Under the pieces are notes generated by a model. That model searched no databases and was not told the DNA's origin. It saw nothing but the letters and a program-made list of their open reading frames with translations. A DNA stretch of 64,000 nt from Burkholderiaceae bacterium (lineage in GTDB: Bacteria; Pseudomonadota; Gammaproteobacteria; Burkholderiales; Burkholderiaceae_C): assembly GCA_019751915.1 (NCBI GenBank), contig JAIEMS010000006.1, forward strand, positions 1 to 64,000, read 5' to 3'. Positions 4,030-59,904 of this stretch are shown here, piece by piece. Both the position numbers and the translations under genes were made by a program. Every line of letters begins with the position of its first letter. Within the stretch, counting starts at the first letter, position 1.

Positions 4030-4581
4030 TCACAGCGCCAGCGTGGCCTGCAAGGCATCGGTCGCCAAATCCTGCGAATCCAACAGGGGCAACTGGTTGA
4101 GCGATTGCAAACCCAAGTCGTCTAAAAATTGGCGCGTAGTGGCAAACAAGGCGGGGCGACCGATGGATTCACGGTGCCCGATGACCTCAATCCAGCCACG
4201 GTCTTCGAGCTGCTTGATGATCAAGCTATTGACCACAACCCCCCGAATATCTTCAATATCGCCGCGCGTCACCGGCTGCCGGTAGGCAATGATCGCCAAA
4301 GTCTCTAAGGTGGCACGGGAGTAGCGCGGTGGTTTTTCTGGGTGCAGCCGGTCTAGAAAAGGCCGCATTTCAGGCCGACTCTGAAACCGCCAGCCAGTGG
4401 CTACCTGTACCAACTCCACGCCGCGCTGTGCCCAGTCTTGCTGCAATTCGAGCAGCAGCCGTTTGACGGCCTCGGCATCGAGCGCGTCGTCAAACAGCAG
4501 GCGCAAATCGCGCACCGCGACGGGCTGCAAAGCGCAGATCAAGGCGGTTTCCAGAACCCGTTTGCTGTCCTGTATGTTCAT
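4030..4581 (-). CDS. scpB: segregation and condensation protein B
   Basis: ScpB is the winged-helix dimer that binds ScpA and SMC in chromosome condensation. The 183-residue protein has the expected tandem winged helices, with [18 protein letters not shown] at the start and the family signature [31 protein letters not shown] in the middle. A second signature, [25 protein letters not shown], follows. No scpA is adjacent. The ATG at 4581 is preceded by a repeat-derived leader shared with the gene at 23655. The 3' end nearly meets the DUF1294 gene. Confidence 0.92.
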
Positions 4582-4583
4582 TT

Positions 4584-4687
4584 AAAACTAACTTCGCTTT
4601 GAAACCTCCCCCTTCAAGGGGATAGAATCATTTTGGGAGAGAGGTGGCCTCTTTCAAAGTCGCTTCTTAGGAGGCGTGGATTGAAAC
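4584..4687. repeat. composite two-hairpin element, copy A
   Basis: The left half (AAAACTAACTTCG, CCCCCTTCAAGGGG hairpin, ATAGAAT) matches the sequence at 23658. The right half, 4652-4687, is a 36-nt palindromic unit starting TTTCAAAGTCGC and ending GTGGATTGAAAC. The right half resembles a single CRISPR repeat and pairs with a related unit at 38136-38172 in which the stem bases change but pairing is kept. The element begins 3 nt from the scpB start codon. Confidence 0.65.
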
Positions 4688-23116: not shown

Positions 23117-23655
23117 GGTTTGGGGGCCAGACGTGCCAGTTCGCGCCGAATGCCGGCCACATCGCTTTCAGCACGGGCAACGCTGGCTTTGAGTTCTGCG
23201 GTGCGTTCCATGTAGCGCTGTGGGTTGCGTAAATCAAGGGCGTTGCGTTCGGGCGCACCGTTGTTGTATTCGCGTGTTAATTCGGCCAGACGGCCCTCGG
23301 CTTTGCGTAATTCCGACTCCAAAATAGCGCGCGCATCGGCATCGCGGGCACGTTGGTCACTGCTGGCAAGGCGCGAGGGGCTAGGCGGGGCAGCAGCGGG
23401 GGCAGGGGTAGCAGCAGTGCTGCCTCCAGCGCTGGTGCTTGCACTAGCGCCTGTGCTGGCACCCGAAGCGCCTGCGCCAGAGCGCTTGCTGGGTACTACC
23501 GTAACGTTTCCGCCTTCTACCAGCTTGCAATTGCGATCCTTGGCATGGCTGGCATTGTTGGTGTATTCGTTGCCACAGCGGTAAATACGATCCTGGGCCC
23601 AAGCGGTGGGCACCAGCAAGGCTGCGCACGACAGGAGGTAGAGTAGTTTGTTCAT
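23113..23655 (-). CDS. secreted DUF4124-like protein between glnA and ntrB
   Basis: A 180-residue protein with a signal peptide (MNKLLYLLSCAALLVPTAWAQ). A short N-terminal module (DRIYRCGNEYTNNASHAKDRNCKLVEGGNVTVV) has two Cys and resembles the DUF4124 start. A long Ala/Ser/Gly-rich linker follows, then a charged helical C-terminus (ADARAILESELRKAEGRLAELTREYNNG). I cannot assign a function. The stop overlaps the ntrB start, so it is translationally coupled to the nitrogen sensor. Its leader carries a partial copy of the composite repeat. Confidence 0.8.
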   Translation of the reverse strand: MNKLLYLLSCAALLVPTAWAQDRIYRCGNEYTNNASHAKDRNCKLVEGGNVTVVPSKRSGAGASGASTGASASTSAGGSTAATPAPAAAPPSPSRLASSDQRARDADARAILESELRKAEGRLAELTREYNNGAPERNALDLRNPQRYMERTAELKASVARAESDVAGIRRELARLAPKP

Positions 23656-23657
23656 GG

Positions 23658-23714
23658 AAAACTAACTTCGGTGTGAAACCTCCCCCTTGAGGGGAACAGA
23701 ATGGATGGGGGCAC
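23658..23714. repeat. composite element, reduced copy C
   Basis: AAAACTAACTTCGG, CCTCCCCCTTGAGGGG and CAGAAT repeat the left half of copy A at 4584. Only a GTGGATGGAAAG remnant of the right half is left. On the minus strand it forms the leader directly before the start at 23655. Confidence 0.65.
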
Positions 23715-27091: not shown

Positions 27092-28063
27092 TTAGGCGCG
27101 CCCGGCTAAACGCAACAGGCCACGCCACTGTTGGCCCCAAAAACCTTGGCCGTAGTCACGCAGCCGACCATCTGGCCCCGCCTCGACTTGGTCGCGCACC
27201 CCGGTGGGGTCAAAGCGGTGCTCAAAATTGGCGGTACCAAACAGCATGTCCCACCACGGCAGGAGAACGCCAAAATTGTGCCCACCCAAGGCTTTGCCTG
27301 CCGATTCATGGCCGATGCCAATGGCGTGGTGCAGCCGGTGAAACCGAGGGCTGACCCAGAGGCGCTCACCGATGCTGCCAAACCAAACCCGCAAGTTGGC
27401 ATGCTGAAAACTTTCGCTCAGTTGTGTCAAGGCCACAATCGCCACAAACTGTCCTGGTGCGACACCAATCAGCTGCGCTGCTATGACCATGATGCTGCTG
27501 CGCAAAACGTCATCGAGCAAATGGCTGCGGTTGTCGCTCCAAGCGGTCAATTGGCGCTGGGCATGGTGCAACGAATGCAGCCGCCACCACCATTCAAACT
27601 GATGTTGTCCGCGGTGCGTCCAGTAGTTAATCAAGTCAAACACCATCAGGTAGAGCAACAAACTCACCCACGGGCCATCGGTAACACCCGGCCACAAACT
27701 ATCGAGCTGGAAGGTGTGAATGCCGCTGACGCGCAGTGCGCCAAACAGCGTGTCCCACAGCGGAGAGAGCGAGAAGAACAGCACCAACTCGAACACTCCC
27801 AAGCGATGGATCAGTGTGTAAATGACATCGGTGCGTACCGCTGCTGGGTCGGTGATGGGTTCGACAGGTCGCCAGCGTTGCAGCGGCACCATCACCACCA
27901 AAATGACCACCAACTGGAGCAACCCAATTAAAAACCATCCAGCGGCGCGGTAACCGTCTTCTAAAAAGTTTGCCATGCCAAAAGCAAACAGCAGCGGCTG
28001 CATGAAGGTTTCAAAAAACCATTGTTGCGCTGCCCCAAAGCTGTTGATCCACCATTCCATCAT
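27092..28063 (-). CDS. sterol desaturase/fatty acid hydroxylase family membrane protein
   Basis: A 323-residue membrane-bound di-iron enzyme candidate. It has the His clusters of the superfamily: FDLINYWTHRGQHQFEWWWRLHSLHHAQRQLTAWSDNRSH and later SPRFHRLHHAIGIGHESAGKALGGHNFG. Hydrophobic segments occur around AAGWFLIGLLQLVVILVVMVPL and VSLLLYLMVFDLINYW. Members oxidise lipid chains or sterols; the substrate here is unknown. It lies 27 nt downstream of the polysaccharide deacetylase and about 44 nt upstream of the EI24 gene in the same direction, suggesting one envelope-related operon. Confidence 0.87.
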   Translation of the reverse strand: MMEWWINSFGAAQQWFFETFMQPLLFAFGMANFLEDGYRAAGWFLIGLLQLVVILVVMVPLQRWRPVEPITDPAAVRTDVIYTLIHRLGVFELVLFFSLSPLWDTLFGALRVSGIHTFQLDSLWPGVTDGPWVSLLLYLMVFDLINYWTHRGQHQFEWWWRLHSLHHAQRQLTAWSDNRSHLLDDVLRSSIMVIAAQLIGVAPGQFVAIVALTQLSESFQHANLRVWFGSIGERLWVSPRFHRLHHAIGIGHESAGKALGGHNFGVLLPWWDMLFGTANFEHRFDPTGVRDQVEAGPDGRLRDYGQGFWGQQWRGLLRLAGRA

Positions 28064-28090: not shown

Positions 28091-28903
28091 TCAGGGCGCA
28101 CCCGTCTGCCGTTGCCGATAGTGGGGATGCTCGCGCAGGGTGCGAAAGCAAAAACCACGTTTTTTTAAACCAACAATCAGTGGCTCTAGTACCACCGGTG
28201 CCCACGCATCCTTGCGCGACCAGATGCCCAAATGGGCCATCAAAATATCACCACTGCGAATGTTTTTGAGTGCCTGTTGCAACAAGGTTTGATTGCTAAA
28301 GCGTTCACTGGACAACTCATCACCTAAAAACCCCGCTGGGGCCCAGCCGACATGGGCGTAACCGCAAGACTGTGCTACCGCTAGCAAACGTGCCGAGGTT
28401 TTACCGCCGGGGGCACGAAAAAGCGGCAAGGGCGGCTGTTCGGTCAGCGTTTGCAAGCGCTGTGCGGCATCGGTAATCTCTTGGCAATATTGCCCTGCTC
28501 CGAGCGTGAACGTTTTACCCGCACGTGGGCCTGCCGAGGGCTGCACCCGAAATGCTGGTGCTGCATCGGTGCCGACATCGGCCCGCCAATAGGTGTGGTT
28601 GAAGGTGTGCGATGCGAACGCATGGCCCTCAGCGGCCCGTGCTTTCCACCAAGGTGCCCAATACTCCCCCAAACTACCATCGCCCTCTTTGGTGCGCTCA
28701 TGGGCGGCAAAAAAAGTGACCCTCACCTGTTGGCGCTGCAACACCTGTGCAATCAGTGGCGCTATTTCCATGTGCCCAGTGTCAAACGTAAGGTACAGAG
28801 GTTTATTGCAATCAATTTGGCCTCTAGCCCCCGTTGAATAAGCACATGATGCTATCAATAAAGAAGCAAAAATAGGCCTTTTGACACCGGGGCTGCGCCA
28901 CAC
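28091..28903 (-). CDS. polysaccharide deacetylase family lipoprotein
   Basis: A NodB-fold enzyme predicted to remove acetyl groups from a surface polysaccharide. Motifs are LYLTFDTGHMEIAPL (a variant of the usual TFDDG), FASHTFNHTYW with the HxxxH metal ligands, and FRAPGGKTS. The ORF track extends to 29005, overlapping the upstream gene in a different frame. A GTG at 28903 (or TTG at 28915, right after the upstream stop) is more likely. The export signal VKRPIFASLLIASC looks like a lipoprotein signal with lipobox IASC, and it is encoded by repeat copy 5. About 270 residues. Confidence 0.82.
   Translation of the reverse strand: MWRSPGVKRPIFASLLIASCAYSTGARGQIDCNKPLYLTFDTGHMEIAPLIAQVLQRQQVRVTFFAAHERTKEGDGSLGEYWAPWWKARAAEGHAFASHTFNHTYWRADVGTDAAPAFRVQPSAGPRAGKTFTLGAGQYCQEITDAAQRLQTLTEQPPLPLFRAPGGKTSARLLAVAQSCGYAHVGWAPAGFLGDELSSERFSNQTLLQQALKNIRSGDILMAHLGIWSRKDAWAPVVLEPLIVGLKKRGFCFRTLREHPHYRQRQTGAP
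28815..28875 (-). repeat. dispersed palindromic element, copy 5, inside the deacetylase gene
   Basis: Minus strand: TTTTTGCTTCTTTATTGATAGC then GGGGCTAGAGGCCAAATTG. It is translated as the signal-peptide region of the deacetylase. Confidence 0.75.
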
Positions 28904-28916
28904 ATAGGGCTGCAAC

Positions 28917-29900
28917 TTAGCGCGGTGCGTGGTCGAGTGTCCAAACGCCATGCGGCGACTTTCCGACATTGACCTGACGCACGACCTTGCGGGTCTGTGT
29001 GTCAATCACTGTCAATTTGCGCGCCCAACGCGAGCTCAGGTAAATCCAGCGGCCATCGGCAGACACGTCCATGCAATCGGGGCCGCCCGGGGCTGGGTAG
29101 GTGTCCGCCACTTGTGCGGTCAGCATGTTGATTTTGCTGATGGTGTTGGCGACGCGGTTGCTCACGTACAAATGCACTCCATCGCCAGCAGCACGAAAGG
29201 CATGAGCGCCGTTGCCGGTTTTGATGACTTTGACGCTGCGGGGTTCGCGTCCAGAAATATCGAACACTTCAACACCATCGCTGCCGGTCAGTCCGATGAA
29301 CAACTGGCGACCATCGGGGCTGCCGTACACGTCGGCAGGCAAGGGGCCAGTGCCCACGCGCCACAAAATGGTTTGTGTCGCGATGTCCATTGCTACCAAT
29401 TCGTTGCTGTCTTGCATCGTGGCATAGACCCGGCTGCTGGTGCTGTCAATCCACAAATGGCTGGGCGTGCGCGATGTGGCAACACGCTTGGCCAGCGTTA
29501 AATCTTTGCCGTCCCAGCGGTAAAAGTCGACGTGGTTGAGGCGATTGCCCGCCGTGATGAGCCACTTCATGTCGGGCGTAAAGCGCAGATGGTACGGATC
29601 GACAATGCCATGCACCGTGCGCTGAATTTGTCCATTGTGTGGATCGACAAAAGTCAGCGAGTCCCCGACCGCGTTAGCGATGATGAACGACTTTTCGTCG
29701 GGGGTCAGGTACAAATGGTGAGGCTCTTTGCCCGCAGGAATGCGCGATGTTTCTTTCCACGTTACCGGGTCAATCACACTGACATTGGCATCGAGCGAAT
29801 TGAGAACAAAAAGTGGCCCAGCCACCGCAGAAGCAGCACCAACGGAGGCCACAACCAAAATAACTGCCTTGCGCAGTAAACCGTACATCAAAGTATTCAC
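28917..29900 (-). CDS. YncE-like YVTN beta-propeller protein
   Basis: A 327-residue secreted protein with a signal peptide (LLRKAVILVVASVGAASAVAG) and seven or so blade repeats of the 40-residue YVTN type, such as PLFVLNSLDANVSVIDPVTWKETSRIPAGKEPHHLYLTPDEKSFIIAN. Further blades include GVHLYVSNRVANTISKIN and RWARKLTVIDTQTRKVVRQVNVGKSPHGVW. Such propellers act in the periplasm as binding scaffolds; some bind metals or DNA. The exact role is unknown. It is the first gene of a probable operon with the deacetylase and the desaturase-like protein. Confidence 0.87.
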   Translation of the reverse strand: MNTLMYGLLRKAVILVVASVGAASAVAGPLFVLNSLDANVSVIDPVTWKETSRIPAGKEPHHLYLTPDEKSFIIANAVGDSLTFVDPHNGQIQRTVHGIVDPYHLRFTPDMKWLITAGNRLNHVDFYRWDGKDLTLAKRVATSRTPSHLWIDSTSSRVYATMQDSNELVAMDIATQTILWRVGTGPLPADVYGSPDGRQLFIGLTGSDGVEVFDISGREPRSVKVIKTGNGAHAFRAAGDGVHLYVSNRVANTISKINMLTAQVADTYPAPGGPDCMDVSADGRWIYLSSRWARKLTVIDTQTRKVVRQVNVGKSPHGVWTLDHAPR

Positions 29901-46656: not shown

Positions 46657-47751
46657 ATGACGGAGACAGTCTCTGAGGTATTGAGCGAAATTCGCGGTCA
46701 AGTAGGCTTTATTACGTTGAACCGGCCTCGGGCGCTGAATGCGCTGTCGCTGGGCATGGTGCGCGATTTGATGGCCGTGCTGTTGGCTTGGCAAAACGAT
46801 GACAGGGTGTTGGCTGTGGCGATTCGTGGCAGCAACAAAGAAGGCCCATTTGGTGCTTTCTGCGCCGGTGGGGACATTCGCTTTTTGCACCAAGCCGGTA
46901 GCCAAGGTAATCCACAAATTGAAGACTTCTTTACCGAAGAATACGCACTCAACCACCTGATTCACCGCTATACCAAGCCTTACATGGCCTTCATGGATGG
47001 CATTGTCATGGGTGGTGGCATGGGCATTAGCCAAGGTGCTGCGCTGCGTATCGTCACCGAACGCACCAAGATGGCCATGCCCGAAACGGCCATTGGCTTG
47101 TTCCCCGACGTGGGCGGCGGTTACTTTTTGAGCCGTTCCCCGGGGCGCACAGGCGAGTGGCTTGGGTTGGTGGGCGAAACCATCGGTGCTGGCGATGCCA
47201 TTGCCTTCGGTTTGGCCGATGGCTGCTTGGCCGTCGATCAGCAAGCGCCGCTGTGGGACGCGCTGGGCACGCAAGCGTTTGCCGATGGTGCCGCGATCCG
47301 TGATTTTGTTGCTACGAAATTAGTAGCTGCTGAAGCAGTTATGGCAAGCGCTAGGGCCGATATTGACCACTATTTTGCGCTGGAGAGCGTCAGTGCCATC
47401 GTCACTGCACTGGAAGCGGCTGGCAGCGACTGGGCCAACGCTACGGCGGCCCTGCTGCGCAAGCGCTCGCCGTTGATGCTGCATGTGGTGCTGGAGCAGG
47501 TGCGCCGCGCCCGCGCTATGGACTTGGCCCACGACCTGCGTATGGAGCGCGACTTGGTGCGCCACTGTTTTTACCTGCGTCCCGGTCAGAGTGAAACGCT
47601 CGAAGGCATCCGTGCGTTGGCGGTCGACAAAGACCACTCGCCGCGCTGGAATCCGGCCCGCATCGAAGACGTTACACCCGCGTTGGTCGAGTCGTTCTTT
47701 GTCAGCCCGTGGCCCGCCTACGCGCACCCACTGGTCGATTTGGTCAATTGA
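46657..47751 (+). CDS. enoyl-CoA hydratase/3-hydroxyisobutyryl-CoA hydrolase family protein
   Basis: A 364-residue crotonase-fold enzyme of the ECH_2 group, which includes 3-hydroxyisobutyryl-CoA hydrolase of valine breakdown. Motifs are VGFITLNRPRALNALSLGMV, the oxyanion-hole stretches GAFCAGGDIRFLHQAG and AFMDGIVMGGGMGISQGA, and TKMAMPETAIGLFPDVGGGYFLSR. The ATG at 46657 follows a GAAGGAAG ribosome-binding site. Residues around FVATKLVAAEAVMASARAD are encoded by repeat copy 9. No valine-pathway genes are adjacent, so the exact substrate is open. Confidence 0.88.
   Translation: MTETVSEVLSEIRGQVGFITLNRPRALNALSLGMVRDLMAVLLAWQNDDRVLAVAIRGSNKEGPFGAFCAGGDIRFLHQAGSQGNPQIEDFFTEEYALNHLIHRYTKPYMAFMDGIVMGGGMGISQGAALRIVTERTKMAMPETAIGLFPDVGGGYFLSRSPGRTGEWLGLVGETIGAGDAIAFGLADGCLAVDQQAPLWDALGTQAFADGAAIRDFVATKLVAAEAVMASARADIDHYFALESVSAIVTALEAAGSDWANATAALLRKRSPLMLHVVLEQVRRARAMDLAHDLRMERDLVRHCFYLRPGQSETLEGIRALAVDKDHSPRWNPARIEDVTPALVESFFVSPWPAYAHPLVDLVN
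47303..47359 (+). repeat. dispersed palindromic element, copy 9, inside the hydratase gene
   Basis: TTTTGTTGCTACGAAATTAG, TAGCTGCTGAAGC and AAGCGCTAGGGCCGAT. The reading frame passes through without a stop. Confidence 0.8.
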
Positions 47752-52954: not shown

Positions 52955-52990
52955 AAAAGGCCGCCACAGCCACTTTTTTGAAAAATAAAG

Positions 52991-53052
52991 AGTGGTTTTG
53001 GCCTCTAGCCCTTATTCAGTCAGTATTAATTGCTATTGAATTGATAGCTACT
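52991..53052 (-). repeat. dispersed palindromic element, copy 10
   Basis: TTTTGGCCTCTAGCCCTTAT and AATTGCTATTGAATTGATAGC. It fills the gap between guaA and the DUF192 gene and touches the latter's 3' end. Confidence 0.85.
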
Positions 53053-53533
53053 TGCTCGGGGCGGCGCTCTGCTGAAAAGGTGCTCCGCCCAGCTTTGAGC
53101 CTGCCTGAAGCCCCTTTTTTGCAAACCAGCCTTGGTTCATTTCAAGCACGTAGCGCACCGGCTTGGCCGAGCAATGCGGCTCGGTGGTTTGGGGCTTCAT
53201 GTGGGCCAAATTGACGATGCTGCCATCGTCGGCCACAAAAGCGGCAGTGAGCGCCAGCAGGGTATTTTTCATCCAAAAACACTGGACGGCGGGTTGCTCA
53301 AAAACGAACAGCATGCCCTCGTGTTGGGGCATGCTCTGGCGGTGCATAAGTCCGATCTGGCGCTCTTGCGGCCCTTGTGCTACTTGAGCGTCAATCCGGT
53401 GCATACCGGCTGTCAGTTCGACGCGCGGCAAGTGCAGTTGCGGCGCTTCTTGGGCCGTGCTGGCCATGCTGGTCAGGGCTAAAACACCAGTGAGCAGGAG
53501 CGCCAGCGGTAGGCGGGTGGCAGACAAAATCAT
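53048..53533 (-). CDS. DUF192 domain exported protein
   Basis: A 161-residue protein with a signal peptide (LPLALLLTGVLALTSMASTAQ) and the DUF192 domain: QVAQGPQERQIGLMHRQSMPQHEGMLFVFEQPAVQCFWMKNTLLALTAAFVADDGSIVNLAHMKPQTTEPHCSAKPVRYVLEMNQGWFAKKGLQAGSKL. DUF192 proteins are small periplasmic proteins of unknown function. The C-terminal few residues (APFQQSAAPSK) extend past the domain into the repeat. It faces guaA and lies behind the small basic peptide gene. Confidence 0.9.
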   Translation of the reverse strand: MILSATRLPLALLLTGVLALTSMASTAQEAPQLHLPRVELTAGMHRIDAQVAQGPQERQIGLMHRQSMPQHEGMLFVFEQPAVQCFWMKNTLLALTAAFVADDGSIVNLAHMKPQTTEPHCSAKPVRYVLEMNQGWFAKKGLQAGSKLGGAPFQQSAAPSK

Positions 53534-58752: not shown

Positions 58753-59904
58753 GTGCAAAATCACCACGCCCCATTTTTTCCGGCCCAACAATGGGATATT
58801 TTTTGCCGCGTCATCGATAACTTTGGCGATATGGGCGTGTGCTGGCGTTTGGCTTGCGCTTTGGCCGCCCGAGGCCAGCAGGTGCGCTTGTGGACAGACG
58901 ATGCTTCGGCGCTGGCGTGGATGGCACCGCAGGGCTGCACAGGGGTGCAGGTGCGCGCTTGGGGCAGTGCGTTTTTGCCCGACGAACGCCCCAGCGATGT
59001 ATGGGTCGAGGCCTTTGGTTGCGAGATTGCTCCTGATTTCATAGCTACTAGCGTAAGCCAATCGAGCGCTAGAGGCCAAAAACCTTCATGGATCAACCTC
59101 GAATACCTTTCCGCCGAGCGCTACGTTGAGCGCTGCCACGCTCTGCCCTCGCCGGTGCAACAAGGCCCGGCGGCAGGCTGGACAAAATGGTTTTTCTACC
59201 CCGGCTTCACCCCGGCCACGGGCGGGTTGCTGCGCGAGTCTGATTTACTCCAGCGTCAAGCCGATTTTGATGTAGCCGCTTGGCGCAGCGCCCAGCCCAG
59301 AGCCGCCGATGCCACCAGCACCACGCCACCGAATGCCCGTTGGGTGTCCTTGTTTTGCTACGAGCCTGTGGCATTGCCCGCTTTACTGGCACAGTGCGCG
59401 CAGGCCACCACCGCCACGCGGCTGCTGGTCACGCCGGGCCGGGCTACAGCGGCCACACAGGCCATTGGGCATGAAAAAAGCAATCAAATAGCCAACCAGC
59501 CCTTGTCTGGCAACACTAATCTGCTATCAATTTCATACTTGCCAGCGGTGACGCAAGCGGAGTTTGACGAGATGCTCTGGGCCTGCGATGTAAATTTCGT
59601 CCGGGGCGAAGACTCGCTGGTGCGCGCACTGTGGGCGGGCAAACCGCTGGTGTGGCAAATTTACCCCCAAACCGACAACGCCCACCACGCCAAGCTGCAA
59701 GCCTTCCTTGATTGGTTGCAAGCGCCGGTCTCACTGCGCCAATTTCATGCAGTTTGGAATGGGCTGATCGATGCACCGCTGCCTGAATTGAGCGCCGCTA
59801 CGTTGCAAGAATGGAGCGATTGCATCGGTGCAGCCCGTGCCCGATTGCTGACGCAAAGTGATTTGTTGAGCCAACTAATGGGTTTTTGCAGCCGAGAACG
59901 CTAA
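58753..59904 (+). CDS. earP: EF-P arginine rhamnosyltransferase EarP
   Basis: EarP adds rhamnose from dTDP-L-rhamnose to an arginine of elongation factor P, encoded just downstream. The 383-residue protein from the GTG at 58753 has [44 protein letters not shown] and the C-terminal nucleotide-sugar site [43 protein letters not shown], both diagnostic. Two repeat-derived stretches interrupt it: [16 protein letters not shown] and [19 protein letters not shown]. The GTG lies 9 bp from the uvrC start on the other strand. Confidence 0.93.
59036..59090 (+). repeat. dispersed palindromic element, copy 11, inside earP
   Basis: TTTCATAGCTACTAGCGTAAGC and GAGCGCTAGAGGCCAAAAA. It is translated in frame, between conserved EarP segments (IAPDF... 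and [14 protein letters not shown]). Confidence 0.85.
59474..59540 (-). repeat. dispersed palindromic element, copy 12, inside earP
   Basis: AAAAAAGCAATCAAATAGCC and CTGCTATCAATTTCATACTTG. The end module is degenerate. It is translated in frame within EarP. Confidence 0.6.

Follow-up and report, generated by a model that had tools for sequence, protein, structure and literature searches.

A dispersed palindromic repeat of Comamonadaceae as the probable export signal of a polysaccharide deacetylase

The stretch analysed here, referred to as the window, comprises 64,000 nucleotides (positions 1 to 64,000 of the forward strand) of contig JAIEMS010000006.1 from the Burkholderiaceae bacterium assembly GCA_019751915.1. 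It contains a gene for a polysaccharide deacetylase in which the hydrophobic segment near the N-terminus is encoded by a copy of a short repeat that is dispersed through the genome, and which most probably uses this copy as a signal peptide. The gene and the elements of its signal are the following.

28091 to 28903, minus strand: polysaccharide deacetylase gene (Polysacc_deac_1, PF01522, 5.7e-18), with a putative start codon
28844 to 28903, minus strand: n-region (MWRSPGVKR) followed by the hydrophobic core (PIFASLLIAS), as far as the Cys of IASC (TGT at 28846-28844), as read from the sequence
28806 to 28877, minus strand: repeat copy (72-nt frame of the model, core of about 62 nt), which encodes the h- and c-regions of the signal peptide
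28820 to 28828, minus strand: predicted site A-R-G↓Q for signal peptidase I (cleavage between 28820 and 28819), encoded by a conserved block of the repeat, GCTAGAGGCC

The GTG at 28903 is a plausible start codon because it lies 14 nt past the upstream stop and is followed by the n-region MWRSPGVKR, with a TTG at 28915 as another possible start.

IFASLLIASCAYSTGARGQI was confirmed as the translation of 28873-28814 on the minus strand, and the peptide encoded by the repeat copy is PIFASLLIASCAYSTGARGQID. The segment 28877-28806 is an ungapped, full-length copy of the repeat in a fixed register, and extends a little beyond the limits 28815-28875 given in a preliminary description of this DNA. A model of the repeat (R1) and a position matrix were built from 22 other copies of the same genome, the target copy being excluded. 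The matrix assigned 63.7 bits to the target copy, while the shuffled window gave no match above 12 bits, and the genome search with the model recovered it with E=6e-12, at rank 32 among the 150 best-scored copies. The core AAGCGCTAGAGGCCAAA, allowing up to 3 mismatches, was matched 78 times in the genome compared to 7 times for its reversed control. As the target copy was matched by a model made of other copies, it belongs to a dispersed palindromic repeat family, and chance similarity was ruled out by the independent model and the shuffled controls. The proposal of the preliminary description that a repeat copy encodes this segment was thus confirmed, both in its translation and by scores from a model that is free of the target.

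The repeat has roughly the layout GCTAT-N7-ATAGCTnCTnnnGCTT-N7-AAGCGCTAGAGGCCAAA, of about 62 nt, and includes the inverted repeats GCTAT-N7-ATAGC and CTAGCGCTT-N7-AAGCGCTAG; the pair 34-48 covaries within the family. At least 150 scored copies are present in the genome, nine of them above 36 bits in the window alone. The copies sampled from this genome were diverged, with a mean pairwise identity of 0.62, and none of them were near-identical (highest identity 0.85). No model matches were found outside Comamonadaceae, in 24 other families of the order represented by one genome each.

For the comparison of orthologues, about 140 deacetylase loci were collected from whole-genome and contig searches, some genomes being present twice. 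Their best N-terminal repeat-match scores had a bimodal distribution that left the range from -30 to 10 bits thinly occupied; 71 distinct repeat segments scored above 10 bits, and 67 of the 115 distinct orthologues were of the repeat type. Repeat-type signals share one frame, usually at an offset of -58 nt from the mature Gln, and were found across the Comamonadaceae tree, deep branches included, with outgroup families lacking them. Named hosts include Acidovorax, Paenacidovorax, Rhodoferax, Polaromonas, Diaphorobacter, Alicycliphilus, Ottowia, Hylemonella and Ramlibacter. On a tree of the 115 mature domains the trait was clustered and family-wide. Orthologues without the repeat carry unrelated ordinary signals, which supports the earlier suggestion that the repeat was recruited as an export signal, export itself being predicted. 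Recruitment as such stood, but not as a single recent insertion: the distribution points to an old, family-wide state, and the copy is one of several such cases in the genome.

Codon choice in the repeat-type orthologues was that of the repeat. ATA encoded the conserved Ile in 55/55 of them, vs. a share of 5.5% elsewhere in these genes, and GCT encoded the first Ala in 67/68 vs. a background of 10%, although selection of the rows by repeat score inflates this bias, an effect limited by the gap in the score distribution. When 47 genomes were compared, the repeat-type deacetylase signal was found in 28/31 repeat-rich but only in 2/16 repeat-poor genomes (p=2e-7, Spearman 0.73, kinship ignored), and the DNA signature was mostly gone where the genome has few repeats. 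The repeats also differ between genomes in what may be called dialects. The ratio AAGGGC:AAGCGC was 13:0, 15:0 and 30:1 in genomes G028, G227 and G349, whereas it was 0:40, 0:32 and 1:38 in G359, G417 and G186; the stem partner was also altered in G227 and G349. Among 13 genomes of clear dialect, the deacetylase signal carried G in 3/3 of the G-dialect and C in 9/10 of the C-dialect (T in the other one). With dialect matrices made from 100-kb samples per genome (fetched copies for the genome of the window), the signal copy fitted its own genome best across seven genera, with p=1e-4 for all columns and p about 1.5e-4 for third codon positions. Base composition was discarded as the cause of this match, as composition alone was not significant (p=0.34 and 0.10). 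The match to the dialect of its own genome suggests that homogenisation with the intergenic copies, or joint selection with them, still acts on the coding copy.

A second gene with orthologue data behaved in a similar way. A copy in the same genome forms the signal peptide of GspD, the type II secretin (NCBIfam, 2.3e-114), and 27 of 30 GspD loci were of the repeat type (22 to 52 bits). The three that were not (-30 to -45) belong to the congeners G002, G008 and G005, with 0, 5 and 3 model matches compared to at least 81 in the other congeners. Their GspD proteins have a similar amino-acid pattern (e.g. LRTALHALFASALLLHSGVPLYAQ) without the repeat DNA.

With good, though not full, confidence we interpret the N-terminus of the deacetylase as a Sec signal peptide derived from a copy of a family-specific palindromic repeat that was recruited early, has been kept as an export signal and co-evolves with the repeats of its genome. 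One frame of the repeat reads as a nearly ready-made signal peptide, in which GCTAT-N7-ATAGC encodes A-I-x-[LF]-I-A, the hydrophobic core, and GCTAGAGGCCAAA encodes A-x-[AG]↓Q, the cleavage region. Recruitment in the deacetylase would have occurred early in Comamonadaceae, and the copy would have been retained since the export signal works. In the target, periplasmic export of the signal peptidase I type would be the most likely outcome, with IASC as an incidental and variable outcome of the repeat sequence. The coding copy would evolve with the other repeats of the genome by gene conversion, by re-insertion or through one co-evolving factor recognising all copies.

Several observations weigh against this interpretation. 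The stems of the target copy are largely eroded (GCTTC/ATAGC), the second stem is gone and its folding was no better than that of shuffled sequences. Genomes G213 and G173 are repeat-poor and yet keep a repeat-type signal, whereas G138, G239 and G073 are repeat-rich and lack it. At least 13 changes of the repeat-type label have to be assumed on the tree, which leaves room for repeated gains besides one gain and many losses, and the h-region of the target ends in IASC, which fits the lipobox pattern [LVI][ASTVI][GAS]C.

The alternative that best survives concerns how the copies are kept alike. An appreciable, if minor, share of probability goes to coding copies being similar through a protein or DNA structure that recognises the motif anywhere, and not through gene conversion, in which case the signal codons would be under selection at the DNA level. 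The loss of the GspD signature in repeat-poor G002, G005 and G008, with the amino-acid pattern staying, agrees with this idea, as does the compensatory way in which the stem pair 34-48 flips between dialects. However, the recognising factor is only hypothetical, the second stem is lost in the target copy, and gene conversion explains the same data.

The target signal has the features of a Sec signal cleaved by signal peptidase I (SPI), namely the charged n-region, the core PIFASLLIAS and small residues at -3 and -1. Among the 57 in-register orthologues, position -3 was A, V, S, G or T and position -1 was A, G, S or T in every sequence, followed by Gln in 40. The Cys of the lipobox was kept in 23/57 (the remainder of the column being G in 13, S in 10 and otherwise Y, F, T, W or N), so that it was not conserved as a lipid-attachment residue in these orthologues. 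Periplasmic export through Sec and SPI is therefore likelier than a lipoprotein, because the cleavage motif was present in 57/57 and the Cys in 23/57, and because the target itself reads A-R-G↓Q; in the target species a lipoprotein is possible, but this would not be the conserved function. That the repeat provides a signal for signal peptidase II, with Lgt and Lsp acting at IASC and the enzyme anchored to the membrane, is in our opinion unlikely. It accounts for the lipobox match and for the higher frequency of lipobox-like matches in repeat-type than in non-repeat orthologues (28/71 vs. 3/48), but not for a variable Cys column next to invariant small residues before the mature start, and the orthologues without the repeat have mostly plain SPI signals. 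The specific claim of a lipoprotein signal in the preliminary description was not supported.

With respect to age, we infer an early gain in Comamonadaceae followed by many losses, with a single old origin, repeated gains being a less likely course of events. That many lineages acquired the signal independently, by insertion or replacement at one and the same codon position instead of by one old recruitment, appears improbable, even somewhat more so than the lipoprotein signal. The distribution is patchy, each signal matches the dialect of its own genome, and intergenic copies turn over among congeners at xthA, all of which would be expected from repeated insertion. On the other hand, the frame is constant, the offset is identical in 57/71 repeat-type sequences and the signals reach deep branches, while the amino-acid pattern can still be aligned in lineages without the repeat DNA, such as Variovorax (LLVAASVVSTGAVAQ). 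Finally, chance or convergence of an AT-rich hydrophobic signal towards the repeat can practically be set aside. The hydrophobic nature of any signal peptide and an overlap in some codons speak for it, but a score of 63.7 bits along 72 positions without a gap, to which synonymous codons contribute, and a register common to many genera leave almost no room for it.

Other coding copies were detected in a census of 107 sampled copies of the genome. Copies in the same frame were found at the start of two exported-type proteins of this genome, a DsbD_N protein (PF11412, 4.1e-18) and a 157-residue protein without Pfam match (L357 and L334), and these are probably signal peptides as well. The chance of 4/19 coding copies being signal peptides was p near 1e-5 if an even spread over coding DNA is assumed, of which signal peptides would make up 0.7%, 0.7% and 19 both being estimates. 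In-frame copies also lie inside DapF (L027), AnmK (L323), a Cu-oxidase_4 protein (L318), EarP (L005) and PbpC (L028), in several frames and both orientations (loci in the order listed); CysN and MurG have copies at their ends. The copies in the second transmembrane segment of DsbB (L012, 30.5 bits), in an AroE-like frame (L017, 33.2 bits), in CysN and in MurG were left out of the signal-peptide count. It is, in our estimate, close to an even question, leaning slightly to the negative, whether the motif is a portable signal-peptide module recruited repeatedly and independently (deacetylase, GspD, the DsbD-type protein and others), for which the repeat system, through recognition or conversion at the DNA level, would dictate the codons while the family is kept and the amino-acid pattern alone would outlive the family.

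As separate observations, an N-terminal copy in CysN was seen in two genera, at L304 (G332) and at L001 in the genome of the window (MTTDLIAASASPVSATGQNDHISALKFITCGS and MTTPETIASNAVAVSARSQDDHISALRFITCGS), and two copies in reverse orientation, L289 (G036) and L307 (G332), appear to encode hydrophobic N-termini that end in QAQ or HAQ (MQKALAAIFLVAIGLPVQAQNWPERP; LTASLLIAFGVLQAPGIHAQPA).

The neighbouring genes of the deacetylase and the other repeat copies of the window are listed below.

28917 to 29900, minus strand: upstream gene, YncE-like beta-propeller (PF21783, 2.2e-154), ending 14 nt before the GTG
27092 to 28063, minus strand: downstream gene, fatty acid hydroxylase family (PF04116)
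52987 to 53058, minus strand: intergenic repeat copy, 70.3 bits
2632 to 2703, minus strand: intergenic repeat copy, 66.4 bits
11286 to 11357, minus strand: repeat copy, 60.9 bits
15989 to 16060, plus strand: repeat copy, 59.2 bits
31519 to 31590, minus strand: repeat copy, 46.5 bits
19604 to 19675, plus strand: repeat copy directly before xthA, matrix match
59019 to 59090, plus strand: repeat copy inside the EarP-family gene (locus L005), matrix match
47301 to 47372, plus strand: weaker in-frame copy with coding sequence on both sides, 36.5 bits, in a putative enoyl-CoA hydratase family gene named without a profile search

Of 21 loci compared within the genus, only those of the target species and of G001 had the copy before xthA. 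An Rfam scan of the window at the gathering score gave tRNA only and no match to the repeat. A second, unrelated dispersed repeat, GTTTGTTCATnnAAAACTAACTTCGnnnTGAAACCTCCCCCTT, was noticed at 4572-4628 and 23646-23702, its two copies being 84% identical. In other genomes, locus L369 (G122 contig 1, 3316000-3319300) has a group of five copies, all oriented alike, in a stretch of about 3 kb. Two of these copies are identical along 72 nt, flanks are shared and small open frames separate the copies, so that the locus resembles a gene-cassette-like array. The top-scoring match of 48 genomes (2.7e-15) lies in G407 (contig 2, 107813-107879), although this genome has only five matches; the region may have been acquired recently.

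The deacetylase offers a concrete and testable case of repeat DNA turned into a deeply conserved protein-targeting signal, with a built-in comparison in relatives from whose genomes the repeat family is absent. Synonymous codons that track the intergenic repeats of the genome are unexpected under standard models of coding evolution, and the annotation of signal peptides and start codons in Comamonadaceae could be misled by such copies.

Small palindromic repeats with many copies per genome are known as repetitive extragenic palindromic (REP) elements, whose GTAG and CGTC super-families were described in a paper (PMC3733652) that names none of the Comamonadaceae genera looked for. The Betaproteobacteria repeat BRE (PMC3110155) occurs in Comamonadaceae also and has some coding copies, but it measures 75-91 bp with 69% GC in Bordetella and at most 29 copies, whereas the present repeat is of about 62 nt, AT-rich and found here in one family; BRE was set apart by length, GC and copy number, from descriptions rather than sequences. 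No description of the present repeat was found in the open-access literature, searches with the letters of the repeat included, which is not proof of absence. Coding palindromes in Rickettsia and one repeat-derived signal peptide in Yersinia are already known. The Rickettsia palindromic elements (Ogata 2000; reviewed in PMC10969869 and PMC2229807) are similar in being short, protein-coding palindromic repeats located both in frame within conserved genes and between genes; compared by description, they differ in length (about 105-150 bp), in their conserved peptide and in their host, while the present repeat supplies signal peptides in Comamonadaceae. In Yersinia, the RU-2/YPAL repeat forms part of the signal peptide of YPO1552 (Delihas 2007, PMC2759123), and there too related proteins elsewhere have unrelated signals. 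That case concerns a single gene, whose function is unknown, in a pair of closely related species, whereas the present repeat extends over many genera, in two genes backed by orthologues, and tracks the dialect of each genome.
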